Source of the DNA: a virus
IMG/VR virus record: IMGVR_UViG_3300040801_004034
Span: 1-64,000 of that record
DNA length: 64,000 nt
Direction: 5' to 3' (one strand)
Shown: positions 17,589-62,823 of the stretch, in pieces
Numbering within the stretch: position 1 is the first letter of the stretch
Layout of the letters: every line of letters begins with the position of its first letter
The notes under the pieces: model-generated
What the model was told of the DNA's origin: nothing
Seen by the model: only the letters and a program-made list of their open reading frames with translations
Database searches by the model: none
Translations under genes and position numbers: made by a program

Positions 17589-17595
17589 TGTTAAA

Positions 17596-17603
17596 TATTT
17601 ATG
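17596..17603 (-). promoter_or_regulatory. Late-type promoter octamer CATAAATA, 7 nt before the gp25 start
   Basis: CATAAATA on the minus strand, spacer TTTAACA, then ATG. It is back-to-back with the plus-strand element at 17650-17657. Confidence 0.7.
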
Positions 17604-17649
17604 ACAACAAACTATGTTAACTATTCGATTGTGTTTTTATACCGCTCTT

Positions 17650-17657
17650 TATAAATA
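17650..17657 (+). promoter_or_regulatory. Exact T4 late promoter TATAAATA, 5 nt before the 17663 start
   Basis: A perfect TATAAATA, spacer ATAGT, then ATG. With T4-like initiation about 6 nt after the octamer, transcription would begin at the A of the start codon. Confidence 0.8.
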
Positions 17658-17662
17658 ATAGT

Positions 17663-18244
17663 ATGGAAAGCAAATTTCTCACTTTAGCAGAGCAAACAAT
17701 CAATCGTTACACTAATGGCGGGGTTCAAAAAAATGATGTCGTTAAATTAGTATCAAATTATAAAACGACCCCGGTATATAAAGATCTTTCACCTGAAGTT
17801 CAAAAGCATATTGAAGACTATTTTCAAGACGGTAAGCAATATAGAGCAATTGATGTTAAACCTCTTCTCCCATCTAACGACGTTGGTGTATCAGATAACC
17901 GCGGAACAACATTTAACGTTGAGGTAGCAGTAGAAATTGCACCTGGTAGATATGATGCACAAAACAAGGTAACAATTCCTGCTCAACTTCTTGAAGTTGA
18001 TGAAACATATCCTAATCTTCCAAATATTCCGGATGATGCAAAATATGATAATAAAGTTTCGATGACCCCGAAAGAACCTGAAGAAAATGAGGAAGAGCAA
18101 CAAACGATGACTCAGCAAGGTGATAAGCTCAAAAAGAGTGAAACGAAATTACCTATTAAAAACACTGATATTTCAAAGACATCAGCACCTGATAAAAATA
18201 TTGTCGGTGAAAGTTACGTTGCTGGCTTTATGAAAGGGTACTAA
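17663..18244 (+). CDS. Hypothetical virion-associated protein
   Basis: The 193-residue protein has a helical N-terminus (TLAEQTINRYTNGG, then a DVVKL helix), a central beta region and a Glu/Gln/Lys-rich disordered tail from about residue 130. A LAE followed by Gln near residue 10 weakly resembles a T4 prohead-protease site. It is transcribed from a perfect late octamer, so it is probably a late structural or internal protein. It is the first of four plus-strand genes in this island. Confidence 0.65.
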   Translation: MESKFLTLAEQTINRYTNGGVQKNDVVKLVSNYKTTPVYKDLSPEVQKHIEDYFQDGKQYRAIDVKPLLPSNDVGVSDNRGTTFNVEVAVEIAPGRYDAQNKVTIPAQLLEVDETYPNLPNIPDDAKYDNKVSMTPKEPEENEEEQQTMTQQGDKLKKSETKLPIKNTDISKTSAPDKNIVGESYVAGFMKGY

Positions 18245-18271
18245 TAATCGGTAAGTAGCATATGGGCTATG

Positions 18272-18279
18272 ATTAAATA
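18272..18279 (+). promoter_or_regulatory. Late-type promoter octamer ATTAAATA, 5 nt before the 18285 start
   Basis: ATTAAATA, spacer AAAAT, then ATG. Confidence 0.7.
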
Positions 18280-18284
18280 AAAAT

Positions 18285-19490: not shown

Positions 19491-19538
19491 TCTGATACTG
19501 TTGTACAAACCAGTTTATAACCATAAATAAATGTAAGT

Positions 19539-20000: not shown

Positions 20001-20003
20001 TTT

Positions 20004-21314
20004 ATGCCAACACATACTACAACACAAGATTTAGACACAAACTCACCACAAATCGATGGTGCTACAGCTACAAAAGGTTCATTCGGGGTAGCACCGGATG
20101 GTACACGTTATGTTAAAAATGGGCCAGCTGATACTGATTGGGAGGTTGCTGGTACAGGAAGCGATGGAGATGCTACTAACCTTGATCCCTTATTGTTACG
20201 TCAAGCACAGTTAGCACAAGAATACATTGATGGTCAATATACAACAAGTGAAATTAAAACTATCCCGTTTACACCTTCTGTAGCAGGTGATCCGAATAAT
20301 CAGTTTCGTTGCGGTGTTTATGATATCATTAAAGAGCGTATTATATTTATACCAACAAACGGTGAAAAATTTAATATTATAGATCAAAATACTAACACAA
20401 CCACACAATCTACATTCGGTTTAGATCTTACTACACCTAATTGGATATCTGTTTGCTTAGGAAATGATGGTAAAGCATATGCTACACCTGACGCTGATAA
20501 CATTACCGGATTTCTCATTATTGATTTAGAAAACGATACAGCTACTGAATCAAGATTTGGTTTACCGCTTTCAGCTTTCGAAGAAAATGAATTTGGTAAA
20601 GTACAATGGCTTGGAATTTGCAACGGTGGTAATGGAAAGTTGTATGCAATGCCATTTAACAGTAATTTTGTATGCATTATTGATACAGAAACACAGACTG
20701 CTGAGCTTAAAGATTATGGTCTCGATTTTGTTGGAAATGGATCATATAGAGGTTGTATTACAGGTCTTGATGGTAGAATTTACGGCACACCGCTAAATTC
20801 TACTTCGGTCCTTATTATAGATCCGGTAACTGACACAGCTACGCAAACCGATTTCGGTATTGATATGAACGATCAACAATGGAATTATGCTGGTACTGGT
20901 CCTGATGGTAAAATTTACTGCTTACCATATAGAGCAGAAGGTGTATTAATAATTGATCCAGCTACTGATACAGCAATAGTAAAAGACTATGGTGCTGATT
21001 GGGCGGTAAGACGACCAGCATATAGAGGAGCTTCTACAGGTGTTGACGGTAGAATTTACGGTTTTCCATATAGAGGTATACGTGAAATTGCTATTCTTGA
21101 TCCTGTTGCAGACACACTCGAATTCACAACAGCTGGTATAGATTTTGATAACGGTGGTACTAATGGTAGCTCCCTTCGTTATGATGGTGGCGTTATTGCT
21201 TCAAACGGTAATTTATACCCTGTAATGGCAAAAGGTGAGGTACAACTTGTTATAGAAAATAACTTAATTAAAAGTTTCCCAAGAGCATGGACACCACCAT
21301 ATAATAACAATTAA
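20004..21314 (+). CDS. Beta-propeller adhesin-like virion protein
   Basis: The 436-residue protein carries a short N-terminal segment typical of fibre-associated proteins. From about residue 110 it has five to six repeats of about 45 residues. Each has the form G.DGK(I/L)Y..P, then a VLIIDP.TDTA strand and a FG(I/L)D turn, for example GPDGKIYCLPYRAEG and GVDGRIYGFPYRG. This is a beta-propeller pattern. It follows the preceding fibre gene by 3 bp and converges on the gp44 C-terminal gene with a 4-bp overlap. A receptor-binding role is inferred from repeats and neighbours, not proved. Confidence 0.75.
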   Translation: MPTHTTTQDLDTNSPQIDGATATKGSFGVAPDGTRYVKNGPADTDWEVAGTGSDGDATNLDPLLLRQAQLAQEYIDGQYTTSEIKTIPFTPSVAGDPNNQFRCGVYDIIKERIIFIPTNGEKFNIIDQNTNTTTQSTFGLDLTTPNWISVCLGNDGKAYATPDADNITGFLIIDLENDTATESRFGLPLSAFEENEFGKVQWLGICNGGNGKLYAMPFNSNFVCIIDTETQTAELKDYGLDFVGNGSYRGCITGLDGRIYGTPLNSTSVLIIDPVTDTATQTDFGIDMNDQQWNYAGTGPDGKIYCLPYRAEGVLIIDPATDTAIVKDYGADWAVRRPAYRGASTGVDGRIYGFPYRGIREIAILDPVADTLEFTTAGIDFDNGGTNGSSLRYDGGVIASNGNLYPVMAKGEVQLVIENNLIKSFPRAWTPPYNNN

Positions 21315-22045
21315 TATATTTCTTCTAGTTTTACAAAACAAGCAAACGCATTAATTTCTTTGTCCATAACAATTGCATCTTTGTATAAATGCTCACTTAT
21401 ACATAAGATATAACGTTTGCTCTGTTCATCGCTAAGATCTTCACACTTGTAAACATGTTCCAAGTAACCTCTCATCAAGGCATGATAATCACCTTGGAAC
21501 TCGCTGTCATTCTCAATCAAATACTTTCTAAGCTTAAGAGATTTCTTACCTGTAATACATTCATGCATGAATGAGTATATGTTATTGAGATTGGTCAACG
21601 TTTGAATATCTAACTTACCATCAACACAATTTTTCTGTACTTCGTTAATGATCTTACGTATATCTGGAAAGTTATTTTTGATAAGCTTACCAAGCTTTGA
21701 TTTCTGCTCACCACTAACGGTAATACCTTCAGCTGATAAGATATGAGCAACCCTCTTAAGAACATCACCAATATCAGCTGTAAAGTCGAATGACTGTGTT
21801 CTACTCTGAAGGGCTGGAATGATCTTGTGCTTGTAATTAGCTGTAAGTATAAACCTGGTTACCTCACTATACTCTTCAATTGTATTTCGTAGGGCTTTTT
21901 GGCCATCTTTTGAGAGCCCGTCACAATTACTCGTTAATACTTTTTTATTTCCAACAAAGAAATTATGTGTTTCATCAACTGAAAGGTCATAAACTTTCTT
22001 CTTTATACCAATTTTTGTTATTTTTTTAATCTTTAATTTTTGCAT
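21311..22045 (-). CDS. 44: Clamp loader gp44, C-terminal half with C-intein (fractured gene)
   Basis: This gene encodes 244 residues. Residues 1-40 are a C-intein: VYDLSVDETHNFFVGNKKVL followed by TSN is intein blocks F and G, ending in Asn before Cys41. Residues 41-244 are the C-extein, which continues the AAA+ clamp loader: CDGLSKDGQKALRNTIEEY, then RFILTANY and helical lid and collar domains. The N-half is at 22975-23625. Trans-splicing would give a 307-residue protein, near T4 gp44 (319). The C-extein +1 residue is Cys. Its ATG overlaps the endonuclease stop by about 20 bp, which could couple translation. Confidence 0.9.
   Translation of the reverse strand: MQKLKIKKITKIGIKKKVYDLSVDETHNFFVGNKKVLTSNCDGLSKDGQKALRNTIEEYSEVTRFILTANYKHKIIPALQSRTQSFDFTADIGDVLKRVAHILSAEGITVSGEQKSKLGKLIKNNFPDIRKIINEVQKNCVDGKLDIQTLTNLNNIYSFMHECITGKKSLKLRKYLIENDSEFQGDYHALMRGYLEHVYKCEDLSDEQSKRYILCISEHLYKDAIVMDKEINAFACFVKLEEIY
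21926..22045 (-). other. C-intein of the split gp44 intein
   Basis: Forty codons ending in Ser-Asn, just before the Cys at +1. This half supplies the block F and G residues for trans-splicing; the N-intein partner is at 22978-23316. Confidence 0.85.
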
Positions 22046-22970
22046 ATGCCTTTCTCATCATTTTAAGTTGTAATAAATTATCATCTTCAAATTTTGTTTC
22101 GTCAATATATTGTATAATATTTTCTTCATTAATCCATTTAAATGACATTTCATTCTGATCACAATATTCTTGCAATGCTGTCATTTTGTCTATTTCTATA
22201 TTATATCTATTTTTCGGTTTAATTTCATACATTGTACGGGTTTCCGGATCATAAAAATCTGAAATGTATGTTTTGACATCTGTTTTGACTCGTATCGTTT
22301 CATACTCACAATGTTGGTTACATAACCAAAAGCATGCTTCCCACGAACTTCTAAATTTTTTAGTTGTTTCCCCAATTACTATTTTTGCATCCCAGTGTGT
22401 CCATGTATTAGTAATGTTTGGTGTGTATTCACCTGATGCGATTTTCCGTTTCATGGTTCGTGACATTTTCTTTGAACACATCTTTTTATGTTGTTTACCT
22501 TCTTCAGTTTCGTAGAATTTTTTCATACGTTTTGATTTTTTATTCCGCTGAGCTATACCTGCATCTGTCTTATTATATTGTTTAAGTGTTTTACGTATTT
22601 TTTCTATTTCAGATTCAGTTTTTGTGTAATCTCTTAGTTTTGTCCACACACGTTGTTTAATTTCTGATGGCGTATATTTTTTCCAACCGGTCCAACCTTT
22701 AAATGTTCCTGAATAAGAAAAACTATCTTCTGTTAACAAAATTCCAGAATATAAGCTATAGTGCGGTTCTTCGAGTAAAAACAAAAAATGATTAACACTG
22801 GGTTTATCCATCCAGTATACCAAGTTAGTAAACCACAACTTATGTGTATCATATACCTTTTTTGTTACAGGATTATAATAACGTACCTGTTTTTGTTTAT
22901 AATCTTGTACCAAATGTTTTATTGACTCTTTTGAATATGATTTTCTATTCGTTCGATTGCCACCTCTCAT
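22026..22970 (-). CDS. Homing endonuclease inserted in the fractured gp44 gene
   Basis: Starting at ATG 22970 the protein is 314 residues. An upstream ATG/TTG-type start at 23006 would add 12 residues but lies inside the N-intein. The N-terminus is basic, the centre is Lys-rich (RNKKSKRMKKF and MCSKKMSRTMKR) and probably DNA-binding. The C-terminus has WEACFWLCNQHCEYETIRV, then YISDFYDPETRTMYEIKPKN, resembling a PD-(D/E)XK or Vsr-type nuclease core. CATAAATA (22976-22983) lies 5 nt before ATG and overlaps the last codons and stop of the N-intein gene. This endonuclease likely spreads the intein between gp44 alleles; cleavage activity is inferred. Confidence 0.75.
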   Translation of the reverse strand: MRGGNRTNRKSYSKESIKHLVQDYKQKQVRYYNPVTKKVYDTHKLWFTNLVYWMDKPSVNHFLFLLEEPHYSLYSGILLTEDSFSYSGTFKGWTGWKKYTPSEIKQRVWTKLRDYTKTESEIEKIRKTLKQYNKTDAGIAQRNKKSKRMKKFYETEEGKQHKKMCSKKMSRTMKRKIASGEYTPNITNTWTHWDAKIVIGETTKKFRSSWEACFWLCNQHCEYETIRVKTDVKTYISDFYDPETRTMYEIKPKNRYNIEIDKMTALQEYCDQNEMSFKWINEENIIQYIDETKFEDDNLLQLKMMRKAYAKIKD

Positions 22971-22974
22971 ATAA

Positions 22975-23625
22975 TTATTTATGACATTCAACAGTAATAC
23001 TATCAACCTTTGTTAAAATTGTATCTATTCCTTTTGAGATCATATCATCTAATTTCATCCTTTCAATCTCACCGTCTTCATTTTCAACATACCATTTATG
23101 ACTACCAGTACATATTATTTTTTCATCATTTTCAAATTCAAGTTCGTAACAATCTTGTTCACCCATGTAAAAATGGCTAAATGGTCTATACTCTATTCTG
23201 TCTTTTATTTGATTATATGACATTACAAGATCATTATCATGATCAAGATCTTTAATAGGTTGAGTACATTTTTTACCATCTCTCAATACATGGACTGGTG
23301 TATTCTCATCAAGACATTCATCAAGCACAATGATCTTCAAATTTTTATCAAACGATTTCGTCTGTGCAAATCCTACAACTTTACTTCTGATAGTATCAAT
23401 ACCGTTTTCGTCAGATGCATTGATATACATATAATCACATTGCAACTTACTAATGATGATTTTCGCAAGCGTTGTTTTACCAATACCTGGTGTACCACAA
23501 AATAACATATGCGGTATTTCAGATGTTATATTTTCAAAATACTTACGATTTTGATTTGACAACACTAAGTCGTCTAATGTTTGAGGTCTGTAACGTTCTG
23601 TCCACAATTGATTAAATTTATCCAT
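22975..23625 (-). CDS. 44: Clamp loader gp44, N-terminal half with N-intein (fractured gene)
   Basis: This gene encodes 216 residues. Residues 1-103 are the gp44 AAA+ N-extein, with CGTPGIGKTT (Walker A, about 43-52) and LKIIVLDE (Walker B, about 96-103). The intein begins immediately after the Walker B Glu with CLDENTPVHV at residue 104, and has the block B motif GSHKWYV. The N-intein is 113 residues. It starts at ATG 23625. TATAAT lies 6 nt upstream with TTGAAC 16 nt further, so transcription would begin at the start codon. gp62 and gp45 are not adjacent. Confidence 0.9.
   Translation of the reverse strand: MDKFNQLWTERYRPQTLDDLVLSNQNRKYFENITSEIPHMLFCGTPGIGKTTLAKIIISKLQCDYMYINASDENGIDTIRSKVVGFAQTKSFDKNLKIIVLDECLDENTPVHVLRDGKKCTQPIKDLDHDNDLVMSYNQIKDRIEYRPFSHFYMGEQDCYELEFENDEKIICTGSHKWYVENEDGEIERMKLDDMISKGIDTILTKVDSITVECHK
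22976..22983 (-). promoter_or_regulatory. Late-type promoter CATAAATA of the gp44 endonuclease, overlapping the intein stop
   Basis: CATAAATA (minus strand) also encodes His-Lys-stop at the end of the N-intein. Spacer ATTAT, then ATG at 22970. Confidence 0.75.
22978..23316 (-). other. N-intein of the split gp44 intein
   Basis: 113 codons starting with Cys after the Walker B Asp-Glu. Blocks A and B are recognisable (CLDENTPVHV; ICTGSHKWYV). The coding ends with a stop, followed by the separate endonuclease gene. Confidence 0.85.
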
Positions 23626-23631: not shown

Positions 23632-23659
23632 ATTATAGTTTATGTTTATGGTTGTTCAA
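23632..23659 (-). promoter_or_regulatory. Sigma70-type promoter of gp44, positioned for a leaderless transcript
   Basis: TTGAAC (23659-23654), 16-bp spacer, TATAAT (23637-23632), then 6 nt (ATCAAT) to ATG. The predicted transcription start coincides with the A of the start codon. Confidence 0.7.
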
Positions 23660-23662: not shown

Positions 23663-23670
23663 ATTAAATA
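23663..23670 (+). promoter_or_regulatory. Late-type promoter ATTAAATA, 5 nt before the 23676 start
   Basis: ATTAAATA, spacer TTTTT, then ATG. It overlaps the region just upstream of the divergent gp44 -35 box. Confidence 0.65.
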
Positions 23671-24648: not shown

Positions 24649-24676
24649 ATTATACAGTATGTGTTTGGTTTATCAA
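24649..24676 (-). promoter_or_regulatory. Sigma70-type promoter of dUTPase, leaderless geometry
   Basis: TTGATA (24676-24671), 16-bp spacer, TATAAT (24654-24649), then AGGTGT and ATG. The spacing equals that at gp44 and gp32. Confidence 0.75.
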
Positions 24677-24683: not shown

Positions 24684-24691
24684 ACTAAATA
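24684..24691 (+). promoter_or_regulatory. Late-type promoter octamer ACTAAATA, 6 nt before the 24698 start
   Basis: ACTAAATA, spacer TAATAA, then ATG. Confidence 0.55.
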
Positions 24692-27954: not shown

Positions 27955-29259
27955 TTAGTTAGTTAAATTTCGAACAGCTGCTTTTGTTGTATTGCTATGT
28001 TCTAATGGAATTATATCTGGAGACGAAATACCACCAGCATTATACCCAGGTGTTGGTCCCCCAGCTACATTTGATGTACCTAGAACAGGTTCCGTTAACG
28101 TTTCACCACCTACAGAACTTGTTGTTACAAGACCTGGACTAATACTTTCATAAAGAAAGTTACGTGTTTCTTCGTTAAGTCCTGAAATTGTTATATTCAC
28201 TTGATATGCATCTGGTATAATAGCTTCTACTCTTTGAACACCTACATCAGCATCATCAGAAGATGTTGTAACCGGTAATGGTATTTTCATCTTACGTCTA
28301 CCACCAATAAAGTCGACTGACATGTTTGAAATGTAGCTATACGGCATAAACAACACCCCGTCTATAATAGTTTCATAAATAACAGGTAAATCAACAAGTG
28401 TTCTTGTTATTCGGCCCGGGCGATTTTGATATACTAACCCGAAAATAAGTTGCCAATTTTGTGCTACATCATCATATGTACCAGTATTTAGCAACGGAAA
28501 TGAAATATTAATATTTCGACCTTCTTGCTGCATTTGAAACTGTCTTGACTCTTCAATATACGTACCAGGTCGGAGGGCTTGAGCAACACTAGCTAGGTTT
28601 GCAGCAATATCTACCGCAGCACTTGCAAAACTACTTGCAATATTTTGCTGATTTTCTCCCATTTGAGTTCGTAATTCAGAATGTTTATTATCAAAGTATG
28701 GTAGGTTATATTCAAAACCTGTATCTTCTAATGCATAAAGACCATTATATGGTTTCAACACATTGCTTGTAAACTGCGCTCCACCGCCTAACTCTGTAAT
28801 AGCGTTTTGTGCAGCCGAAATTGTCTCTGAAATTTGCTCGCTTGATATCTGAGCAATACTACCCACATTTTGGCCGATTGATGTTTGACTCAATGCGTTA
28901 CCGCCTGGTATCAAATTCTGTACTGTAGCTGCTGAGTTTATTAAACTATCTACACCTGTACCACCCGCACCAAGAGCAGCATTTAAACTATATGCAAGAT
29001 TTGTGATAGTGCTATTCTTTGTTATACGTTTTTCTTTAATACGAACACTCGGTGTATCACGACGTGATGTTTGTGGAGACTTTGTCCATTGAAAATCGTT
29101 AACGACATCAATAGGGCTTGTAGGGTTTCCTACAATAAGCTTTTCATACACAGTATTCGCAGAAAAGTCTATATCATTACCTGTTATACTAGTAGATGAG
29201 CGTACTAGAGCAGGTATTGTACCGTCTTTACCGAATTTAAGTGACCATAAGTTTGACAT
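27955..29259 (-). CDS. Baseplate tail-tube cap protein, gp48-like
   Basis: The 434-residue protein has a Ser/Ala/Gln-rich middle (about 90-170) and a C-terminal tube-like domain. There YISNMSVDFIGGRRKMKIPL and IPDAYQVNITISGLNEETRN resemble gp48/gp54 tube-initiator proteins. Late octamer ATTAAATA is 7 nt before the ATG. Position between the tape measure and gp53 supports a tube-base role. T4 gp48 is 364 residues. Confidence 0.55.
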   Translation of the reverse strand: MSNLWSLKFGKDGTIPALVRSSTSITGNDIDFSANTVYEKLIVGNPTSPIDVVNDFQWTKSPQTSRRDTPSVRIKEKRITKNSTITNLAYSLNAALGAGGTGVDSLINSAATVQNLIPGGNALSQTSIGQNVGSIAQISSEQISETISAAQNAITELGGGAQFTSNVLKPYNGLYALEDTGFEYNLPYFDNKHSELRTQMGENQQNIASSFASAAVDIAANLASVAQALRPGTYIEESRQFQMQQEGRNINISFPLLNTGTYDDVAQNWQLIFGLVYQNRPGRITRTLVDLPVIYETIIDGVLFMPYSYISNMSVDFIGGRRKMKIPLPVTTSSDDADVGVQRVEAIIPDAYQVNITISGLNEETRNFLYESISPGLVTTSSVGGETLTEPVLGTSNVAGGPTPGYNAGGISSPDIIPLEHSNTTKAAVRNLTN

Positions 29260-29266: not shown

Positions 29267-29274
29267 TATTTAAT
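29267..29274 (-). promoter_or_regulatory. Late-type promoter octamer ATTAAATA, 7 nt before the 29259 start
   Basis: ATTAAATA on the minus strand, spacer TTAGTAG, then ATG. Confidence 0.65.
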
Positions 29275-30975: not shown

Positions 30976-30983
30976 TATTTATA
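30976..30983 (-). promoter_or_regulatory. Exact T4 late promoter TATAAATA, 5 nt before the tape measure start
   Basis: TATAAATA on the minus strand, spacer TATGT, then ATG. Confidence 0.8.
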
Positions 30984-31718: not shown

Positions 31719-31726
31719 TATTTATT
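31719..31726 (-). promoter_or_regulatory. Late-type promoter octamer AATAAATA, 5 nt before the 31713 start
   Basis: AATAAATA on the minus strand, spacer CATTT, then ATG. Confidence 0.6.
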
Positions 31727-33346: not shown

Positions 33347-33354
33347 TATTTAAT
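33347..33354 (-). promoter_or_regulatory. Late-type promoter octamer ATTAAATA, 7 nt before the 33339 start
   Basis: ATTAAATA on the minus strand, spacer ATAAAAA, then ATG. Confidence 0.65.
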
Positions 33355-33976: not shown

Positions 33977-33984
33977 TATTTAAT
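33977..33984 (-). promoter_or_regulatory. Late-type promoter octamer ATTAAATA, 7 nt before the gp19 start
   Basis: ATTAAATA on the minus strand, spacer ATTACAA, then ATG. It overlaps the end of the preceding small gene. Confidence 0.65.
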
Positions 33985-34728: not shown

Positions 34729-34736
34729 TATTTATT
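34729..34736 (-). promoter_or_regulatory. Late-type promoter octamer AATAAATA, 5 nt before the 34723 start
   Basis: AATAAATA on the minus strand, spacer ATATT, then ATG. Confidence 0.6.
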
Positions 34737-37226: not shown

Positions 37227-37234
37227 TATTTATA
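37227..37234 (-). promoter_or_regulatory. Exact T4 late promoter TATAAATA, 7 nt before the sheath start
   Basis: TATAAATA on the minus strand, spacer ATAGTAT, then ATG. It is back-to-back with the endonuclease promoter at 37262-37269. Confidence 0.8.
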
Positions 37235-37261: not shown

Positions 37262-37269
37262 CTTAAATA
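37262..37269 (+). promoter_or_regulatory. Late-type promoter CTTAAATA, 5 nt before the 37275 start
   Basis: CTTAAATA, spacer ATTTT, then ATG. Confidence 0.7.
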
Positions 37270-38054: not shown

Positions 38055-38665
38055 ATTAGTTCAATATATAGCTGCGAAAATGCAAACTCAAAAGATGAAT
38101 ACAATTCCGCAGAGTCGTCGTTATCATATGTGTATTCAATTGCACCAACAGATACAGGGAATGCATCTTTGTAAATAAATTTTACAACATTCTTATTATA
38201 TTCATCAATACCATAAACTGTAAATGTCGTCTGGTATTGTTGCGGTGGTGTTGCAGATCGTTTAATTTTACCAACCGTCGGTTTTTGTACGTTTGCAACA
38301 TTATCAGCATCATATACAGAATCTTTCATATCATTCAACAATGATAGCCATCTTTGTAACAACCAATAATTATAATATCTATTATCAACAGGAAATTGTA
38401 CAGTCACATTTTCGTACGGCTCTCTTGTATGTAATGATACCTTCATACTCTGACCAGCATATTTTAAAGTTTCAGAATTTACTTTTGTACTTGGCACTAT
38501 CGTACCCTTAATTGATAGCTGTAGCGAATCAGTTATAATTTCACCTTTATCACTCGTACCAAAATTTTTAGTATTGATATCTCTTAAAGCATCTGGTATA
38601 TCGATAACAAGTCTAAACTTGTCTGTACGTGCTTGGTTAAGCGTTGATTGAATTATCTCCCCCAT
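38051..38665 (-). CDS. Tail tube-like / tail completion protein
   Basis: From ATG 38665 the protein is 204 residues (a GTG at 38674 could add three). It has a tube-fold pattern: ARTDKFRLVIDIPDALRDI at the N-terminus, LQLSIKGTIVPSTKVNSETL in the middle, and a C-terminal series QTTFTVYGIDEYNKNVVKFI with FPVSVGAIEYTYDNDDSAEL. It resembles gp19-like proteins and could be a tube terminator or neck protein. It follows the terminase C-half and overlaps its stop. Confidence 0.6.
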   Translation of the reverse strand: MGEIIQSTLNQARTDKFRLVIDIPDALRDINTKNFGTSDKGEIITDSLQLSIKGTIVPSTKVNSETLKYAGQSMKVSLHTREPYENVTVQFPVDNRYYNYWLLQRWLSLLNDMKDSVYDADNVANVQKPTVGKIKRSATPPQQYQTTFTVYGIDEYNKNVVKFIYKDAFPVSVGAIEYTYDNDDSAELYSSFEFAFSQLYIELI

Positions 38666-39858
38666 TGTGTCCACCCTTGTTGTTCTAACATTGCCATATC
38701 ATCATCTTGCGACATACCATTATTTATAAGAGCTGGCATCACATCATAATGTTCTTCATTTTCATTACTCATATAACCACCTGGTCTCATAAACTCTTTG
38801 ATACCATAATCATGCTCTTCAAGTAGAAGTGGTTTGTTTGCCTCGTCTCTCTCAACCACTGTAAAATATTGTTCAATCACATCATCTATAAGAATGATTA
38901 AATTCCACATCAATCCAGCAACACGGTCATCGTAAAATCCTGATTTAGCTTGCCATTTCCCGTTCTTACCCTTTGTGAATGTTTTAAGTTCATTGATTAA
39001 ATGAATGTCACGGATACTTACAGCACGTACATTAGTGACCCAATGTCTCATGTTTGTTACACCAATATGTTTTGTGTTAGTATGACTAATTATACCATTT
39101 TGTATTGATTTACGTTTTGCTTTACTGGCGCCCCACGATACTATTTTTTCATAGTTGTGAACATTTTTAAGACCATCAACGACCTGTGCACCACTATTAT
39201 TACGTTCGACACAGACTAAAGGCATTCCCCAGTTTTGTAATATCTCATGTACTTTTTCAACAAAATTATACGGTGCTATTTCATTGTTATGATAACAAGC
39301 AACCTGTTTAATTTCTGTAAGATCTGTATAATCAAAAATTTGCACCACACTAGCATCACGCCCTATACCTTCACTTGTATCAACACTTGCAACATAGATT
39401 TTCTCATCACTTGGTTCTTCCCATATCTTATAATGGCCGTTATCATAAACATATTTTGGTTCATATGTGTTCGATTTCAAAAACTCGAACATTTCCTCAT
39501 TAATAGTCTGATCTGATGAATCAATCCACACACAATTATGGCTATACATATCATTTGTATAATATGCTTTAGTACCATCAACATTTACGATATCGTAAAC
39601 AACACGATCACCACATGGGTGTTTCGAAATAACTTTCTGTAAACCACTTAAGGTTTCCACACCTGTACCTAGTAGTATATCGTTAACTCGTTCAAAACCG
39701 TATTCCGTTTTCAACATATGGTCATACGATGCAGTTAGACTATATACACCACAGTTAATTGATATACATGGTTTTGTTTGCTTAGATATACCATAGAATG
39801 TTTTATATCCTTCTTCAGTCAATACTTTCGTATTGTTAATATTTTTAATGAATTCCAT
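38653..39858 (-). CDS. 17: Terminase large subunit gp17, C-terminal half with large C-intein (fractured gene)
   Basis: This gene encodes 401 residues. Residues 1-108 are an unusually long C-intein. It starts NTKVLTEEGYKTFYG, has the block B region YSLTASYDHMLKT, and ends VDGTKAYYTNDMYSHN before Cys109. Residues 109-401 are the C-extein with the nuclease domain: IYVASVDTSEGIGRDASVVQ is the first Asp-containing nuclease motif. The N-half with a short N-intein is at 40660-41562. Joined protein would be about 560 residues (T4 gp17 is 610). The intein halves match the split position of the published AceL-TerL intein as I recall it. Confidence 0.9.
   Translation of the reverse strand: MEFIKNINNTKVLTEEGYKTFYGISKQTKPCISINCGVYSLTASYDHMLKTEYGFERVNDILLGTGVETLSGLQKVISKHPCGDRVVYDIVNVDGTKAYYTNDMYSHNCVWIDSSDQTINEEMFEFLKSNTYEPKYVYDNGHYKIWEEPSDEKIYVASVDTSEGIGRDASVVQIFDYTDLTEIKQVACYHNNEIAPYNFVEKVHEILQNWGMPLVCVERNNSGAQVVDGLKNVHNYEKIVSWGASKAKRKSIQNGIISHTNTKHIGVTNMRHWVTNVRAVSIRDIHLINELKTFTKGKNGKWQAKSGFYDDRVAGLMWNLIILIDDVIEQYFTVVERDEANKPLLLEEHDYGIKEFMRPGGYMSNENEEHYDVMPALINNGMSQDDDMAMLEQQGWTQWGR
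39535..39858 (-). other. C-intein of the split terminase intein (atypical split)
   Basis: 108 codons, containing the usual N-terminal block B and C-terminal blocks F and G. The matching N-intein is only 33 residues, so the break lies near the N-terminus, unlike the gp44 and gp41 inteins here. Confidence 0.85.
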
Positions 39859-40228: not shown

Positions 40229-40721
40229 GATAATGTTTCCTCCAATCGTTCCCGTATGTATACATGAAATGTTCTCGTTTGTTTGGCATTATTCTGCACT
40301 TACCGCAGTATGCTTTTTCTTTAAATTGCTGTGTAGCAGCGTCCCATGTAATTTTCGAACCGCATTTACAATAGTATTTTCTCGGTATATCACCACCACA
40401 AAAACCTAATATAAACAAATGCGCAGAAAAACTCTTCGTTTTGAGTTTATCATGATATTCTATACCGTAATGTTGCACGCTTTTGAATAATGAAATATCA
40501 TCCTTTTGCATTTTTCTATTACCAGATTTACCGAGATATTTTTTCCAATTATCATCTTCTGATAGCATACTAATAGTTTTTTGCTTACTATATAATTGTG
40601 CTTGTTCTAATCGGTTTTTTTGTGTTGTATACCAATTTGTTGTTATTTCACTCTGGTTTTCATTTGCTTTCGCACTGTAGTCTTTCGTAAAGTTCTTCGA
40701 TTGTTTGGGTATATTGTTCAT
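40194..40721 (-). CDS. Homing endonuclease N-terminal ORF in the fractured terminase
   Basis: The 175-residue product starts inside the N-intein coding region at ATG 40721. ATTAAGTA (40728-40735) lies 6 nt upstream. It is Lys-rich and has a four-cysteine zinc-ribbon-like motif (YYCKCGSKITW, then AYCGKCRIM). It lacks a nuclease core, which appears in the +1-shifted frame downstream. It is either a DNA-binding part of a frameshifted enzyme or a separate partner. Confidence 0.6.
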   Translation of the reverse strand: MNNIPKQSKNFTKDYSAKANENQSEITTNWYTTQKNRLEQAQLYSKQKTISMLSEDDNWKKYLGKSGNRKMQKDDISLFKSVQHYGIEYHDKLKTKSFSAHLFILGFCGGDIPRKYYCKCGSKITWDAATQQFKEKAYCGKCRIMPNKREHFMYTYGNDWRKHYLEYHRRMEFTI

Positions 40722-41562
40722 TTTTATTACTTAATCGAACAAGAGTGTTTCCAGCGCAACAACCAAATTCTTGATCAAACGCTTCTTCACTATCCATACT
40801 AGCTTTTGTAAGCTTTACCCATGCATCATCTCTACCAGGTACTTCATTCCAAAGCACCTTATCACATGCCCAACCATTTGTGTTGTTTTCTGCACCAGTG
40901 AAAAGCTTGTAAAATAAGTTGTCAGTACCATTTGCAGTAGATGCTATAAAAATCTTAGATTTCTTAGAAGATGAAATAACAGGGTATACAGATGACCAGA
41001 ACGGCTTCATAATATGTGGTTCAACGAAAGCCATTTCGTCAATAATAAGAGTACCAACTGCTTGACCACGAGCTGCAGTACCTGTTGTTGTCGAAATATT
41101 AATCTGACTACCATTACTCAATTCAACTGATGTCTTACCATAAGCAACAACACCAGGCTTTAACCAGTTTGGCAATTCTTCGTATGCAAGTCTAACACGA
41201 CCGAGAATTTCAATAGCTGTATCCTCTTTATTTGCTACAATAAGAATACGTTGGTCTTTTTGAAAGCAAGCCACCCATAAAGCGTATATTGTAAAGAGTG
41301 TTGTTTTACCAATCTGTCTAGATGCTAATAATATAAAGAAACGATTTTTGACCATCTTCCTAAGAACCCGGTCCTGAAATTTATGAAGCGTGATAGGTTT
41401 TCTACCTTCGTCAACATTAATAATAGTAAAAAACTTTGAGAAAAAATGAATATCATTTTTTGCTTTAATCAGATCACGCATCATCTCTGGTGTATAATCG
41501 TGTTCAGCTCTCGCGGTAGGCAAATTAGGATTATTTTTGTATGACTGTGTATTTTGCGACAT
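40660..41562 (-). CDS. 17: Terminase large subunit gp17, N-terminal half with short N-intein (fractured gene)
   Basis: The 300-residue protein has residues 1-267 as the ATPase N-extein. It shows LASRQIGKTTLF (Walker A, about 79-90), a typical adenine-binding Gln region around LHKFQDRVL and TLIIDEMAFVE (Walker B). It ends at FDQEFG, where T4-like terminases continue with CEF. The next 33 residues (CCAGNTLVRLSN, ending TIEELYERLQ then CESK) form a short N-intein. The C-half is at 38653-39858. Terminase packages DNA into proheads, so protein trans-splicing would be required for virion production. The gene is divergent from the 41581 gene. Confidence 0.9.
   Translation of the reverse strand: MSQNTQSYKNNPNLPTARAEHDYTPEMMRDLIKAKNDIHFFSKFFTIINVDEGRKPITLHKFQDRVLRKMVKNRFFILLASRQIGKTTLFTIYALWVACFQKDQRILIVANKEDTAIEILGRVRLAYEELPNWLKPGVVAYGKTSVELSNGSQINISTTTGTAARGQAVGTLIIDEMAFVEPHIMKPFWSSVYPVISSSKKSKIFIASTANGTDNLFYKLFTGAENNTNGWACDKVLWNEVPGRDDAWVKLTKASMDSEEAFDQEFGCCAGNTLVRLSNKNEQYTQTIEELYERLQCESK
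40663..40761 (-). other. N-intein of the split terminase intein (33 residues)
   Basis: The fragment starts at the Cys of CCAGNTLV and ends with a stop. Its coding sequence also carries the late-type promoter and start codon of the inserted endonuclease. Confidence 0.8.
40728..40735 (-). promoter_or_regulatory. Late-type promoter ATTAAGTA of the terminase endonuclease, inside intein codons
   Basis: ATTAAGTA (minus strand) is part of codons for Arg-Leu-Ser-Asn of the N-intein. Spacer ATAAAA, then ATG at 40721. It uses the TAAGTA variant found at 45941 and 62008. Confidence 0.55.
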
Positions 41563-41567: not shown

Positions 41568-41575
41568 TATAAATA
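41568..41575 (+). promoter_or_regulatory. Exact T4 late promoter TATAAATA, 5 nt before the 41581 start
   Basis: TATAAATA, spacer TTTAC, then ATG. It is part of the palindrome TAAATATTTA, which also places TGTAAATA on the minus strand upstream of gp17. Confidence 0.8.
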
Positions 41576-42495: not shown

Positions 42496-42503
42496 TATAA
42501 ATA
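42496..42503 (+). promoter_or_regulatory. Exact T4 late promoter TATAAATA, 5 nt before the 42509 start
   Basis: TATAAATA, spacer TATAG/TT region of 5 nt, then GTG. Initiation at the usual distance would place the transcript end at the GTG. Confidence 0.8.
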
Positions 42504-43984: not shown

Positions 43985-44249
43985 CAACACCGCTTCGATA
44001 TCGGTTTATATTATATTTCATATCACCGAAACGCTCTTCAACGTATTTTTGTAAGGCTCCCGGTTTAATCCATGATGTGCTTTTATCTGTATTTACACCA
44101 ACTCTTTCAGCATGAGCGGCAGCTAGATTTACACCCTCGTATAAGCATGCAAATCTAGCAATAAAACCATCACCATATGATTCTTCAGCATCGTTTTTTA
44201 GTCCTTGTTGTTTAGCTAGTTCGATACTATTGTTCATCTGTTTTTTCAT
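43950..44249 (-). CDS. Small hypothetical helical protein
   Basis: The 99-residue protein (ATG 44249, or 44237) has an Ala-rich helix (NLAAAHAERVGVNTD) and an acidic tail. It overlaps the upstream gene stop by 11-23 bp. No domain is recognised. Confidence 0.55.
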   Translation of the reverse strand: MKKQMNNSIELAKQQGLKNDAEESYGDGFIARFACLYEGVNLAAAHAERVGVNTDKSTSWIKPGALQKYVEERFGDMKYNINRYRSGVDDDEIYPWSKI

Positions 44250-44649
44250 GTAATGATTGTAACAGAGTTCCTAATATCTTATAATCAAGTGTATTATCAT
44301 CATTGATTTTAAGAGCTATCAATTGTTCACGAACACTACGTAAATTATTCAATAGCATCTTTTTACATGAATTATTGAATGTAGCTGTTTTATCATCTGT
44401 GTTATTTGTTTGAAATGTATTATAAATCTGTTCCTCAATTAAATTGAAAATTATCTTGATCGTAGCTGTCTGCACTTTTTGGTTTTTAGAAAGAACCTTC
44501 CCAGCTAAAATATTATCATACTGTTCCATCGGTACAAATTTCTTCAGCAACTTAATAATATCGTCGATACTAGGTGTTTCTGGTTCTTCAACCGGTCGAT
44601 CTAATATTGTTGTCGGTACCTCTCTAGTAATCTTATCTAATTCGCTCAT
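44227..44649 (-). CDS. Hypothetical helical protein
   Basis: The 140-residue protein has an acidic, Pro/Glu-containing start (DRPVEEPETPSIDDIIKLLK) and several helices. Its start overlaps the upstream stop (ATGA). No enzyme motif is visible. Possibly an assembly factor; function unknown. Confidence 0.6.
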   Translation of the reverse strand: MSELDKITREVPTTILDRPVEEPETPSIDDIIKLLKKFVPMEQYDNILAGKVLSKNQKVQTATIKIIFNLIEEQIYNTFQTNNTDDKTATFNNSCKKMLLNNLRSVREQLIALKINDDNTLDYKILGTLLQSLHEKTDEQ

Positions 44650-45369: not shown

Positions 45370-45377
45370 TATTTAAT
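45370..45377 (-). promoter_or_regulatory. Late-type promoter octamer ATTAAATA, 5 nt before the 45364 start
   Basis: ATTAAATA on the minus strand, spacer ATAGT, then ATG. It faces the plus-strand element at 45427-45434. Confidence 0.65.
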
Positions 45378-45426: not shown

Positions 45427-45434
45427 AATAAATA
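45427..45434 (+). promoter_or_regulatory. Late-type promoter octamer AATAAATA, 5 nt before the 45440 start
   Basis: AATAAATA, spacer ATTGT, then ATG. Confidence 0.65.
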
Positions 45435-45927: not shown

Positions 45928-45935
45928 CATAAGTA
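45928..45935 (+). promoter_or_regulatory. Late-type promoter CATAAGTA, 5 nt before the 45941 start
   Basis: CATAAGTA, spacer TTATT, then ATG. It shares the TAAGTA variant with the endonuclease genes at 40721 and 62008. Confidence 0.6.
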
Positions 45936-45940: not shown

Positions 45941-47065
45941 ATGGTCGATGTAATTGAAAAATACAAACAAGGTTCTTCAATGAGAGAGCTTGCTATAGAG
46001 TACAAATGTTCACAGAACAAAATTAAAAAATATCTTGTTGATAACAATATTACATTACGAACACGATCCCAAGCACTATCAAAGAATACATGCGAACAAT
46101 ATAGAGATGAGATACTTCAAAAGTACGCAGATTCTATAACAATTGGTCGGTTAACAAAAGAGTATAACATACCTAGTCATAAAATACGCGAATTCCTCAA
46201 ATCGAACGATGTTCATGTCCGTACTAAAGAAGAAGAATATATAACCGAATGCGAACAACAAAACATCAATATACAGGACATAGTTCGCAGGTATAATGAA
46301 GATGGTGTACCTGCAAAGGAACTTTCCAGGATTTACAACACATCCCATACACGTATAAAGACAATTTTCAACAAATTCGGTAACGGGTTAAAAACAACGA
46401 AAGAAATTCGTAACAGTAAATGGTATAATGATAAATTATCGAAAACAACAACTAAAATACAAGACCAAACACAGATAGATGATATTCTAGAAATGTACAG
46501 TAATGATGTTAGATGCGAGGATATAGCTGAAAAATATAACATATCTATTGGATCTATTATGAATCTTCTAAACCGTGTTGGTGTTGAGAAACGCTGTAGA
46601 AAACAAGTTGATAAGAATGCAGTAGCTCAACGAGAAGCTACAATGAATGAAAAATACGGTGTATCATATTTTATGCAGGATCCTAAAAACATATACAAAC
46701 CGTATTGTATGTATAGTGTCGAAATTGAGGGTATCGAATATACGAATTTACAAGGTTTTGAAAAACAAGGTATTATATATTTGAATGAATGTTACAACAT
46801 AAACTATAGCGAGATTTTAGCAGGTCGAAACGAACATATACCGACGATAAAATATGTTTCAACAGATAAAAAACAACACTACTATTTTCCTGATATCTAC
46901 ATACCGTCTCAAAATATGTTAATCGAAATCAAATGTGAGTATACATTTTCAACTTCGAAACATATTACAATGCTTAAACACAAAGCATGTAAAGAGCAGG
47001 GGTATAAACACAAAATTATTATATTCAACAACACCGGAACAGAAATAATTGAAACTATAGCTTAA
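45941..47065 (+). CDS. Free-standing homing endonuclease with four HTH repeats
   Basis: The 374-residue protein contains four helix-turn-helix-like repeats of about 45 residues at the N-terminus: SMRELAIEYKCSQNKIKKYL, TIGRLTKEYNIPSHKIREFL, PAKELSRIYNTSHTRIKTIF and RCEDIAEKYNISIGSIMNLL. The C-terminal part has YYFPDIYIPSQNMLIEIKCE and a KHKIIIFN strand, resembling a Vsr/PD-(D/E)XK nuclease core with E..K. It inserts between two small late genes and does not interrupt a recognised gene. Endonuclease function is inferred from architecture. Confidence 0.75.
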   Translation: MVDVIEKYKQGSSMRELAIEYKCSQNKIKKYLVDNNITLRTRSQALSKNTCEQYRDEILQKYADSITIGRLTKEYNIPSHKIREFLKSNDVHVRTKEEEYITECEQQNINIQDIVRRYNEDGVPAKELSRIYNTSHTRIKTIFNKFGNGLKTTKEIRNSKWYNDKLSKTTTKIQDQTQIDDILEMYSNDVRCEDIAEKYNISIGSIMNLLNRVGVEKRCRKQVDKNAVAQREATMNEKYGVSYFMQDPKNIYKPYCMYSVEIEGIEYTNLQGFEKQGIIYLNECYNINYSEILAGRNEHIPTIKYVSTDKKQHYYFPDIYIPSQNMLIEIKCEYTFSTSKHITMLKHKACKEQGYKHKIIIFNNTGTEIIETIA

Positions 47066-47068
47066 ATA
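47061..47068 (+). promoter_or_regulatory. Late-type promoter CTTAAATA, 6 nt before the 47075 start
   Basis: CTTAAATA, spacer ATAATA, then ATG. It overlaps the endonuclease stop codon. Confidence 0.6.
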
Positions 47069-48826: not shown

Positions 48827-48854
48827 ATTATATACTAGAAAATGCTTTAATCTA
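48827..48854 (-). promoter_or_regulatory. Candidate sigma70-type promoter of primase
   Basis: TAGATT (48854-48849), 16-bp spacer, TATAAT (48832-48827), TAACGG, GTG. The -35 match is poor, but the spacing equals that at gp44, dUTPase and gp32. Confidence 0.5.
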
Positions 48855-54211: not shown

Positions 54212-54943
54212 CTATTTAATTAGGGTCGTTACGATGTAAGTCAACACTGTTTCACCTTTTGTAAGTGTACAGATCAATATACCTGTGTCACTATTCACAT
54301 CGATTTTAACATGTTTTGTATTCTGATAGCTTAACAATCTGAATACCTCAAAATCAACAACGATCGGCTCGATCGGGGATCCTGTAAATGATTCAGCAAG
54401 TTTGCAAGTAAAATTATCACTATTATGTTTTGTTTTATCACCTAACTCACCACAAACATGATCATCTTCAGTATAGAAGTAGAGTTTATTAGTGTTTGTC
54501 GTAAATGAGCTTGCTTTAAACAATAGAGCAATATCTTTTTCAATACATGTAAATGTACTTGGGAAGTCAAGCTGCTTTGCTTTCTCTGGGTTCAGATTTG
54601 GTTGTTTGATGATACCGTCTTCAAGTAAATGATATTTGAATTTAAATTCCCCTTTCTTGTACGAAATATTATTACTACCTATTGTAAGTTCAATTTCATT
54701 CTCAGGTATAATATCAAGCACCCTAATAAGCTTTTTGATATCAGGTACGTTTAGTTTAGATGGTACAAAATCAACAACAGTTACAGGGTATACACCGTTA
54801 CATACAAGCGTTACATTATTTGTTGCAATGATACAACTTATCAGGTCTTCTTTAACTTCGAAAATACCCAGTTCATTAATATTCGAAACAGGTTCGAGGA
54901 AGTTTTTGATGAAATCGTTTTTGTTTTTGATTTGCAGTTTCAT
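54212..54943 (-). CDS. 45: Sliding clamp gp45
   Basis: The 243-residue protein (T4 gp45 228) has the clamp beta-strand pattern, including LGIFEVKEDLISCIIAT at the N-terminus and a terminal strand LICTLTKGETVLTYIV. gp45 is the trimeric processivity factor and in T4 also the late-transcription activator. It overlaps the 148-residue gene (4 bp) and is separated by 30 kb from gp44, unlike T4. Confidence 0.85.
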   Translation of the reverse strand: MKLQIKNKNDFIKNFLEPVSNINELGIFEVKEDLISCIIATNNVTLVCNGVYPVTVVDFVPSKLNVPDIKKLIRVLDIIPENEIELTIGSNNISYKKGEFKFKYHLLEDGIIKQPNLNPEKAKQLDFPSTFTCIEKDIALLFKASSFTTNTNKLYFYTEDDHVCGELGDKTKHNSDNFTCKLAESFTGSPIEPIVVDFEVFRLLSYQNTKHVKIDVNSDTGILICTLTKGETVLTYIVTTLIK

Positions 54944-56261: not shown

Positions 56262-56289
56262 ATTATAAATACTAGGTCGCTGAAATCAA
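56262..56289 (-). promoter_or_regulatory. Sigma70-type promoter of gp32, leaderless geometry
   Basis: TTGATT (56289-56284), 16-bp spacer, TATAAT (56267-56262), AGATTT, then ATG at 56255. Confidence 0.7.
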
Positions 56290-59666: not shown

Positions 59667-59674
59667 TATTTATG
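59667..59674 (-). promoter_or_regulatory. Late-type promoter CATAAATA of the gp41 endonuclease
   Basis: CATAAATA on the minus strand, spacer ATGTTT, then ATG (59660). Confidence 0.7.
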
Positions 59675-59695
59675 ACTGCTACACAGATTAACATG

Positions 59696-61015: not shown

Positions 61016-61665
61016 TTGTTTAGAAACCATCTCTGTCCATTATAGAATGTTTCATCTGGTTTATCAAGGCCTGGTGATTGATGAATGACTGGTATGTCAA
61101 CAACCCCAACAGATACTTTGTGTTCGTTACATGTCAGACATATGTCAAGGTCATAAAAATGAAACTTACTCGGGCAGGTTTCATCAAATCGAACTTCATC
61201 CGGTAACTGTTTAATATTGATACATATGAATAGACCATCTATCAATAGCGCTCTTGATGGTAACGGGCCAAATGAAGTATACATGTATTGATCTTCAGAA
61301 CCATGAGCAACACAACCTCTATGATCTTTACGATCCGACATTAAATGCCATAGTGCTGGTTCTTTCAAATTACAACCTCTTGAACCAGCTAAACCGTTGA
61401 CTGTATAAACGCAGTTGTTTTGGATACGATCCCATAAATCGGAGCAGTTAATATACACATCATCGTGTATCAAAACTAAGAAATCGTATTTGTAATTTTT
61501 TGCTTCTTGAATACACTTGTTATAGTATGATTGTAAAGGTTCTGAATTATTTTCTTTGAACTTAAAATGTAAAAAATATTGATCTAATAGTTTTTTGCTG
61601 CTTTTAAACAGAGCTGTATCTTCTTTTTTACCTTTTGTAGCGCTACATACTAAAATATTACTCAT
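60997..61665 (-). CDS. Glycosyltransferase-like protein
   Basis: From ATG 61665 the protein has 222 residues. It has a GT2-like pattern with FLVLIHDDVYIN near residue 65 (acidic metal-binding) and a C-terminal FHFYDLDICLTC with VVDIPVIHQSPG. It lacks a membrane segment. The start overlaps the upstream gene stop. It may add a sugar to DNA, protein or host glycans. The assignment is moderate. Confidence 0.55.
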   Translation of the reverse strand: MSNILVCSATKGKKEDTALFKSSKKLLDQYFLHFKFKENNSEPLQSYYNKCIQEAKNYKYDFLVLIHDDVYINCSDLWDRIQNNCVYTVNGLAGSRGCNLKEPALWHLMSDRKDHRGCVAHGSEDQYMYTSFGPLPSRALLIDGLFICINIKQLPDEVRFDETCPSKFHFYDLDICLTCNEHKVSVGVVDIPVIHQSPGLDKPDETFYNGQRWFLNKWKNKD

Positions 61666-61990
61666 ATTCTTTCCTATCGTCCAGTTCTGGTTTATTTTTT
61701 TCGGTATACATTGCAGCCATGATATTCCAAATAGCTGCTGCAGCATGGTCTTCATCAGTATGGTTCTGAAACCACTTTCTCAAATGTCTATCAGCACTAT
61801 CATAGTAAACACTCAATGGCATACCGAGTTTCCAGTTGTTTGGTGAATAACGCTCTGCACCTTTTGTAAAATGTAATGCTACTCTTTCTAACTCTTCTTG
61901 CGGTACTAATGACATCCGCGGCTTACCAACCCCTGTATCACGGTGAGCTCCAGTGTCGAATTTTCGGTTATTTTCATTCCTATCTTCCAT
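61658..61990 (-). CDS. dATP/dGTP diphosphohydrolase-like domain protein
   Basis: The 110-residue protein fits the DUF5664/dNTP diphosphohydrolase N-terminal family: DTGAHRDTGVGKPRMSLVP near the start, then KGAERYSPNNWKLGMPLSVY, DSADRHLRKWF and an AAAIWNIMAAMY helix. These phage proteins are thought to act on purine dNTPs. A functional assignment is by family only. It is coupled to the downstream glycosyltransferase-like gene. Confidence 0.65.
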   Translation of the reverse strand: MEDRNENNRKFDTGAHRDTGVGKPRMSLVPQEELERVALHFTKGAERYSPNNWKLGMPLSVYYDSADRHLRKWFQNHTDEDHAAAAIWNIMAAMYTEKNKPELDDRKEYE

Positions 61991-61994
61991 TATG

Positions 61995-62002
61995 ATTAAG
62001 TA
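61995..62002 (+). promoter_or_regulatory. Late-type promoter ATTAAGTA, 5 nt before the 62008 start
   Basis: ATTAAGTA, spacer TTGTT, then ATG. It shares TAAGTA with the endonuclease genes at 40721 and 45941. Confidence 0.6.
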
Positions 62003-62007
62003 TTGTT

Positions 62008-62823
62008 ATGTTTATCGGATTCATTTATATAGTATATTATATAGGTAATAATAGTATAATCAAGGACCACAGTTATATAGGTTCAAGATTATACAACAAA
62101 GGTTGGGAGACGTACATGGGATCATCTGTATCAAATAACGAGAAGTGTGTTATTTGGCGAAATGAACTTAAAACCAATCCAGAGAATTTTAAACGTGTGA
62201 TTTTAAAAAATGTGACTGATAGTGAGAACATTTACACCGAAGAACATTTAATGATGGAAAAATTTGGTGTTGATTTAAAATCCAATAGTAAGTGGATTAA
62301 TAGATCTTTCCCGATATTAAATGGATTATCCGACAATTTCTTAGATGATGATCAGTTACAAGCTATAAAAGAAAAACGTAAACAAACATGCATACAAAAA
62401 TATGGTGTTGATCACCCTTCTAAAACAATCATAAATAGAAAAAAATGTAAAGCGCGTTTCAACACTGATGATGTCCGTAAAAGACGAGGTAAAAGTATTT
62501 CGAAAGCGTGGAAAAACAAAACAAAAATTGAACTAGAACAAATTACACAAAAACGTACAAAAAAATTACAGAAATATCTCAGTAACCAAAAAAATTATTC
62601 AAAACACTGTGAAATGAGAAAACGTACAGCATTAAAATGGTGGGTCACAGTTGAATGTATTGAAACTAATAAAACATTTTCATTTTTTAAAAACGATAGT
62701 TTATATCATATACAAGTAGGTCCTGGACAAATAATGAAACGTATAAGGAAAGTCACAATGTCACCTTTTAAAAGTAAAGATGGTATGACATACAGGTTGA
62801 TATCATGTATTAAAAAACACTAA
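62008..62823 (+). CDS. Free-standing GIY-YIG-like homing endonuclease
   Basis: The 271-residue protein begins with a GIY-YIG-type module (FIYIVYYIGNN, then SYIGSRLYNKGWETYMGSS). The second half is Lys-rich with a KYGVDHPSKT motif seen in phage endonucleases. It is on the plus strand between minus-strand nucleotide genes and interrupts no recognised gene. It probably encodes a mobile endonuclease; its target is unknown. Confidence 0.7.
   Translation: MFIGFIYIVYYIGNNSIIKDHSYIGSRLYNKGWETYMGSSVSNNEKCVIWRNELKTNPENFKRVILKNVTDSENIYTEEHLMMEKFGVDLKSNSKWINRSFPILNGLSDNFLDDDQLQAIKEKRKQTCIQKYGVDHPSKTIINRKKCKARFNTDDVRKRRGKSISKAWKNKTKIELEQITQKRTKKLQKYLSNQKNYSKHCEMRKRTALKWWVTVECIETNKTFSFFKNDSLYHIQVGPGQIMKRIRKVTMSPFKSKDGMTYRLISCIKKH

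Follow-up and report, generated by a model that had tools for sequence, protein, structure and literature searches.

Promoters that appear to be built into start codons, of late gp55 type and early sigma70 type, in an uncultured T4-like phage clade

Introduction

The late octamer of phage T4 spans −13 to −6, with its first base numbered −13 (PMC2988020). This numbering places +1 at the sixth base after the octamer, so that a spacer of 5 nt between octamer and ATG puts +1 on the A of the start codon. A first-pass annotation of the window, which is the whole 64,000-nucleotide stretch considered here (bases 1-64000 of the 221,292-base virus contig IMG/VR IMGVR_UViG_3300040801_004034), reported about 27 genes whose T4-type octamer stops 5, 6 or 7 nt short of the start codon, and predicted leaderless late mRNAs. 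The question raised by this locus is whether its late promoters are indeed fused to start codons, and whether such an arrangement extends to the rest of the genome and to its relatives. The full contig was analyzed.

Results

A T4-like contig without a close cultured relative

The gene set comprised 253 genes predicted over the whole contig with a simple home-made codon-usage caller. Homologues of the T4-like myovirus markers gp17, gp18, gp20, gp21, gp23, gp43, gp46/47 and gp55 identified the 221-kb contig as T4-like, without a close cultured relative. Its gp20 was about 30% identical to those of cultured T4-like phages, compared with 67% and 64% for two related genomes, G001 and G002. The gp55 homologue is located at 77787-78275 of the contig (phmmer, E about 1e-16 against T4-like gp55) and has orthologues in both relatives, while a candidate gp45 sliding clamp at 54212-54943 gave only a modest match (E = 2.5e-5). 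A search of bacterial and archaeal genomes with the focal gp23, intended for host identification, found zero relatives.

Several other features were recorded. Approximately 39 tRNA genes and a tmRNA lie at 125549-143167 of the contig (plus strand). One tRNA of this cluster has a CTA anticodon and is a possible amber suppressor; TAG is still the stop codon of 43 of the 253 called genes. A GOLLD RNA (Rfam RF02032, 179 bits), with a tRNA-like match within it, was found at 143025-143472 (plus strand). The terminase gp17 (window 38653-41562) and the clamp loader gp44 (window 21311-23625) are each divided into two ORFs with other ORF(s) between the pieces, and the inserted ORFs starting at 40721 (in gp17) and 22970 (in gp44) each have a fused late octamer of their own.

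Late octamers are fused to start codons throughout the genome

All 27 genes named in the first-pass annotation were confirmed, each beginning a genuine ORF with ATG or GTG. The octamer fits NWTAARTA in 26 of them; the site before 24698 is ACTAAATA (CTAAATA), which falls outside the variants originally given. The sites in the window are as follows.

17650..17657, plus strand: octamer TATAAATA, spacer 5 to ATG 17663
18272..18279, plus strand: octamer ATTAAATA, spacer 5 to ATG 18285, tail fibre-like gene
23663..23670, plus strand: octamer ATTAAATA, spacer 5 to ATG 23676
24684..24691, plus strand: variant octamer ACTAAATA, spacer 6 to ATG 24698
37262..37269, plus strand: octamer CTTAAATA, spacer 5 to ATG 37275, homing endonuclease-like gene
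41568..41575, plus strand: octamer TATAAATA, spacer 5 to ATG 41581
42496..42503, plus strand: octamer TATAAATA, spacer 5 to GTG 42509
45427..45434, plus strand: octamer AATAAATA, spacer 5 to ATG 45440
45928..45935, plus strand: octamer CATAAGTA, spacer 5 to ATG 45941
47061..47068, plus strand: octamer CTTAAATA, spacer 6 to ATG 47075
61995..62002, plus strand: octamer ATTAAGTA, spacer 5 to ATG 62008
10128..10135, minus strand: octamer CTTAAATA, spacer 7 to ATG 10120
10652..10659, minus strand: octamer ATTAAATA, spacer 5 to ATG 10646
14553..14560, minus strand: octamer CTTAAATA, spacer 7 to ATG 14545
17108..17115, minus strand: octamer ATTAAATA, spacer 6 to ATG 17101, gp6-like baseplate wedge
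17596..17603, minus strand: octamer CATAAATA, spacer 7 to ATG 17588, gp25-like
22976..22983, minus strand: octamer CATAAATA, spacer 5 to ATG 22970, gene between gp44 halves
29267..29274, minus strand: octamer ATTAAATA, spacer 7 to ATG 29259
30976..30983, minus strand: octamer TATAAATA, spacer 5 to ATG 30970
31719..31726, minus strand: octamer AATAAATA, spacer 5 to ATG 31713
33347..33354, minus strand: octamer ATTAAATA, spacer 7 to ATG 33339, tail tube-like
33977..33984, minus strand: octamer ATTAAATA, spacer 7 to ATG 33969, gp19-like tail tube
34729..34736, minus strand: octamer AATAAATA, spacer 5 to ATG 34723
37227..37234, minus strand: octamer TATAAATA, spacer 7 to ATG 37219, gp18-like tail sheath
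40728..40735, minus strand: octamer ATTAAGTA, spacer 6 to ATG 40721, ORF between terminase gp17 pieces
45370..45377, minus strand: octamer ATTAAATA, spacer 5 to ATG 45364
59667..59674, minus strand: octamer CATAAATA, spacer 6 to ATG 59660

Offsets of 5-7 nt from WTAARTA to ATG occurred 30 times in the window against 6.4 expected (P = 1e-11). Over the whole contig, WTAARTA was followed by ATG at exactly 5 nt in 52 cases, compared with a flat background of 5.6 (P about 4e-32) and 7.9 in Markov-shuffled sequence, and the counts at offsets 6 and 7 were raised too. The spacing is beyond AT-rich chance, as had been claimed, and the offset distribution is not flat in the genome at large. The over-represented signal is the spacing to ATG rather than the abundance of TATAAATA, whose over-representation in the window was unclear (18 copies vs 12.5); the whole contig held 272 octamer copies, below the 368 of the shuffles. 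Among 114 wholly intergenic octamers, 52 were fused to a start and only 13 (about 11-13%) stood 8-40 nt from one. An unbiased hexamer scan of the focal genome returned GGAACC at 16 nt, TATAAT at 6 nt and TAAATA at 5 nt as the top start-positioned words.

At the gene level, an octamer ended 5-7 nt before the start in 64 of the 253 called genes. The fused start was the first ATG of its ORF in 58 of these 64 and the pick of the caller itself, which was blind to the octamer, in 54. The original observation is confirmed, and it understated the extent of the arrangement.

The initiator signature is anchored to the octamer

Alignment of the genes on the octamer revealed, irrespective of spacer, a T at the second base past the box and a step from pyrimidine to purine at positions 5|6. 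The base at −1 was a pyrimidine in 41 of 45 spacer-5 genes but in 108 of 189 other genes (P = 9e-6), and base 6 past the octamer was a purine in 16 of the 19 genes with a spacer of 6 or 7. Since the distance of this initiator is fixed to the octamer and not to the AUG, the motif acts like a promoter whose +1 is predicted at the AUG or 1-2 nt before it.

Shine-Dalgarno sequences, scored as a duplex energy of ≤ −5 kcal, preceded none of the 64 octamer genes, 10% of the other focal genes and 13% of internal codons, compared with 69% in T4 and 48% of the other genes sampled in HTVC008M by the same measure. The earlier argument that late starts leave no room for a Shine-Dalgarno sequence was right about the absence; however, the sequence is missing from the whole focal genome, so that lack of room is no special feature of late genes. 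Searches of the three genomes for bS21 and IF3, as phage-encoded helpers of leaderless initiation, gave no match and thus yielded no phage factor that would assist leaderless initiation.

Early promoters are fused as well

In octamer-free genes, TATAAT was concentrated directly before the starts, and over the whole contig it was followed by ATG at exactly 6 nt in 59 cases against about 10. The −10 box of sigma70 promoters occupies −12 to −7, so that TATAAT-N6-ATG would again place +1 on the A of AUG. Early-type sites in the window are as follows.

23632..23637, minus strand: −10 TATAAT, spacer 6 to ATG 23625, gp44 N-terminal part
24649..24654, minus strand: −10 TATAAT, spacer 6 to ATG 24642
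48827..48832, minus strand: −10 TATAAT, spacer 6 to GTG 48820, gp61-like primase
56262..56267, minus strand: −10 TATAAT, spacer 6 to ATG 56255, gp32-like
61039..61044, minus strand: −10 TATAAT, spacer 8 to ATG 61030, gp41-like helicase
44256..44271, minus strand: GGAAC-N5-TACAAT promoter, spacer 6 to ATG 44249

Some TATAAT promoters of the focal phage have a TTGA −35 box at a spacing of 16-17 nt. A larger number are preceded by GGAAC at a strictly kept distance, with 55 sites of GGAAC-N5-TATAAT against 3 summed over all other gaps from 0 to 11. Relaxing the −10 box to TANNNT gave 80 sites on the focal contig, 45 of which had an ATG at exactly 6 nt, and the base at −1 was a pyrimidine in all 45 (T in 37, C in 8). 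These promoters are distributed over 124.7-142.7 kb and 164-220 kb of the contig, in addition to the window site at 44249-44271. Copies of GGAAC-N5-TATAAT are also present near the tRNA cluster with no ATG behind them, which fits the expectation for a promoter. An exact scan of IMG/VR for GGAAC-N5-TATAAT-N5-Y-ATG retrieved at least 118 stretches; among the matches listed, several had 5-9 copies and many loci encode relatives of focal proteins. GGAAC-N5-TATAAT appears to be a new class of early promoter, mostly fused to ATG at 6 nt. The rule proposed for late promoters is true of them but is not specific to them, as sigma70-type early TATAAT promoters are fused too.

Promoter type follows gene class

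Homologues in T4, S-PM2, HTVC008M and Melnitz served to assign the genes to classes. Nine late structural genes of the focal phage (gp5, 6, 13, 15, 18, 19, 20, 21 and 25) carried the octamer and none a fused TATAAT, while its early genes gp32, 41, 43, 44, 55, 61 and uvsX carried a fused TATAAT and none the octamer. For the core genes of the focal phage, G001 and G002 together, with TTGA-spaced TANNNT boxes also accepted, the ratio of octamer to TATAAT was 24/0 for late and 0/16 for early genes (P = 1.6e-11). About half of the core genes, 17 late and 21 early, lacked a fused box, among them split fragments and genes located within operons.

The capsid gene seems to keep a leader

The window gene 27955-29259 was considered as the capsid protein and rejected, since gp23 was located at 149846-151342 of the contig. 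In the focal phage, gp23 has no fused octamer. The gap between gp22 and gp23 holds a conserved element instead, composed of CCTGAGTTWCCTGG, a hairpin, CCTTGGGGTCGAA, AAAGGAAAA and the ATG; it lies at about 151350-151403 (minus strand) and combines a covarying hairpin with a AAAGGAAA stretch. The DNA pattern of this leader was found in 67 IMG/VR contigs, typically directly in front of a start resembling that of a capsid protein (MNSIRP or a near variant). Base pairs in the outer stems totalled 132 across 28 different hairpin inserts, compared with 18 (maximum 40) in the shuffled inserts; the search pattern itself imposed about two pairs on each insert. An Rfam search with the leader gave no plausible match, only one spurious snoRNA hit. 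In view of the conserved element, gp23, the most abundant virion protein, seems to be translated with a structured leader containing an AGGA stretch. The late-gene rule has exceptions, notably gp23, and also operon-internal genes.

The arrangement recurs in relatives and, in part, in two cultured pelagiphages

An octamer offset of 5 nt to ATG was found 50 times in G001 (185 kb; 8.1 expected) and 47 times in G002 (209 kb; 7.2 expected), with P about 1e-22, and TAAATA at 5 nt ranked first in the hexamer scans of both. At the gene level, starts in both genomes are preceded by TTGA at about 30 nt and by TATAAT at 6-7 nt, while their plain TATAAT-ATG count was only mildly raised. Relatives of the 27955-29259 protein, mostly 38-53% identical, were found at 27 IMG/VR loci, and a fused octamer preceded the orthologue in most of them. 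With two near-identical copies removed, the octamer offsets summed over these loci, some of which overlap the same phage so that the sum is not fully independent, peaked at 5 (94) and 6 (44) against about 12.

In control phages, the octamer-to-ATG distance peaked at 21-29 nt for T4 and at about 23-29 nt for S-PM2, which upholds the contrast drawn earlier with the leadered late genes of T4. Octamer-N5-ATG sites were few or none, near the reversed-pattern control, in T4, KVP40, RB49, phiM12, Cr30, P-SSM2, P-HM1, S-PM2, phage C48C1 and ACG-2014f. HTVC008M had 9 NATAAATA-N5-ATG sites vs 1 in the control, and Mosig had 8 vs 0. Seven of the HTVC008M sites were matched to RefSeq-annotated starts, among them those of gp48-, gp25- and gp2-type genes, and this phage lacks a TATAAT-N6-ATG peak. 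For the HTVC008M genes that start at 6280, 7562, 19456, 31132 and 49760 (plus strand) and at 16007 and 18916 (minus strand), the predicted +1 is the A of the AUG. Both phages were cultured on Ca. Pelagibacter ubique HTCC1062. Since they carry fused late octamers, the late half of the rule can be tested in culture.

Discussion

These results very probably describe a T4-like clade with promoters built into the start codon, late ones of gp55 type and early ones of sigma70 type, and with leaderless promoter-proximal mRNAs. In late genes, an NWTAARTA box covering −13 to −6 would be read by the host RNA polymerase with gp55 as its phage-encoded sigma factor; in early genes, the promoter would consist of a TATAAT box of sigma70 type, covering −12 to −7, and a TTGA −35 or a GGAAC box immediately upstream of it. 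The predicted first base of the transcript is the A of the AUG where the spacer is 5 (late) or 6 (early), and otherwise a base 1-2 nt ahead of it. Translation of the resulting messages would proceed without a Shine-Dalgarno sequence and would probably rely on 70S ribosomes recognizing the 5′-terminal AUG. The start sites, the use of gp55 at the octamers and the translation route are what we infer from sequence. The earlier prediction of leaderless late mRNAs is favored by the spacing, the octamer-anchored YR step, the lack of Shine-Dalgarno sequences, the restriction of the octamer to late core genes and its conservation in divergent relatives.

Three other explanations were weighed. Chance in AT-rich DNA has a negligible probability: the octamer is common in such sequence, as its copy number below that of the shuffles illustrates, but the offset-5 excess recurs in two relatives and 25 further loci and is not seen in the similarly AT-rich T4 and P-SSM2, and chance was rejected by the shuffles, the flat-offset background and the control phages. 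It is also very unlikely that the AT-rich box is a translation signal, that is, a Shine-Dalgarno substitute or enhancer in mRNAs that begin further upstream. An alternative initiation signal could exist in a genome where Shine-Dalgarno sequences are lacking and every start is preceded by A-rich sequence; however, the box is the T4 late promoter word, core octamers are late-only and TATAAT early-only, the YR step and the conserved T track the distance to the box and not to the AUG, the −35 TTGA and GGAAC boxes sit at promoter spacing, and GGAAC-TATAAT stands near tRNA genes that have no AUG.

Somewhat less remote, though still improbable, is that the promoters are fused while most protein comes from leadered read-through transcripts, with the leaderless form minor and the fusion mainly saving genome space. 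Many late genes are in tight clusters, within 10-20 nt of the upstream gene, where upstream read-through would also yield leadered copies, and gp23, which has no fused box in the focal phage, retains its AGGA leader. On the other hand, no Shine-Dalgarno or other conserved leader signal was found upstream of the fused genes, and compaction alone would not pin +1 to the A of AUG across three promoter types.

The system resembles T4 late transcription (gp55, gp33, gp45; TATAAATA) in its similar octamer, its late structural genes and its gp55 homologue, and a candidate clamp with a modest match is encoded as well. It differs in that the octamer stands 5-7 nt from the start without a Shine-Dalgarno sequence, whereas in T4 it stands 21-29 nt before the AUG and such a sequence follows, and the first two octamer positions are looser here (NW). 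The middle and late transcripts of the Thermus thermophilus phage phiYS40 are mostly leaderless (PMC3594737), a property predicted here as well; unlike in that unrelated phage and host, where only middle and late mRNAs are described as leaderless, early promoters are fused too and the late octamer is of T4 type. In Deinococcus-Thermus, TANNNT a few bp before the ORF yields leaderless mRNA, experiment having identified it as a promoter and not a ribosome-binding site, in a cellular class of about one third of genes (PMC12340547). The −10 box adjoins the ORF in both systems, but no gp55-type box exists in the latter. HTVC008M and Mosig likewise have 8-9 fused late octamers each, but in only a subset of genes, and HTVC008M otherwise uses Shine-Dalgarno sequences and lacks the early peak.

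A literature search of incomplete coverage found no earlier description of late promoters fused to start codons in T4-like phages. The claim that the rule was previously undescribed stands to that extent, although phiYS40 already provides a case of leaderless phage mRNA. What appears new is the clade-wide fusion of early and late promoters in a T4-like genome, together with the GGAAC class. It is likely that a widespread uncultured clade leaves nearly all promoter-proximal genes, whether early or late, leaderless with +1 on the A of AUG, uses the new GGAAC-N5-TATAAT class and keeps a conserved structured leader for gp23.

If true, this would be the first known T4-like lineage whose whole expression program bypasses leaders and Shine-Dalgarno recognition, and such phages recur across environmental viromes. 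The arrangement yields transcription start predictions at the level of single bases, gene starts could be annotated from promoters, and natural leaderless initiation would become testable via cultured pelagiphages. Judged by their genomes, the phages of this group seem to dispense, in most of their messages, with the leader on which ribosomes usually land.
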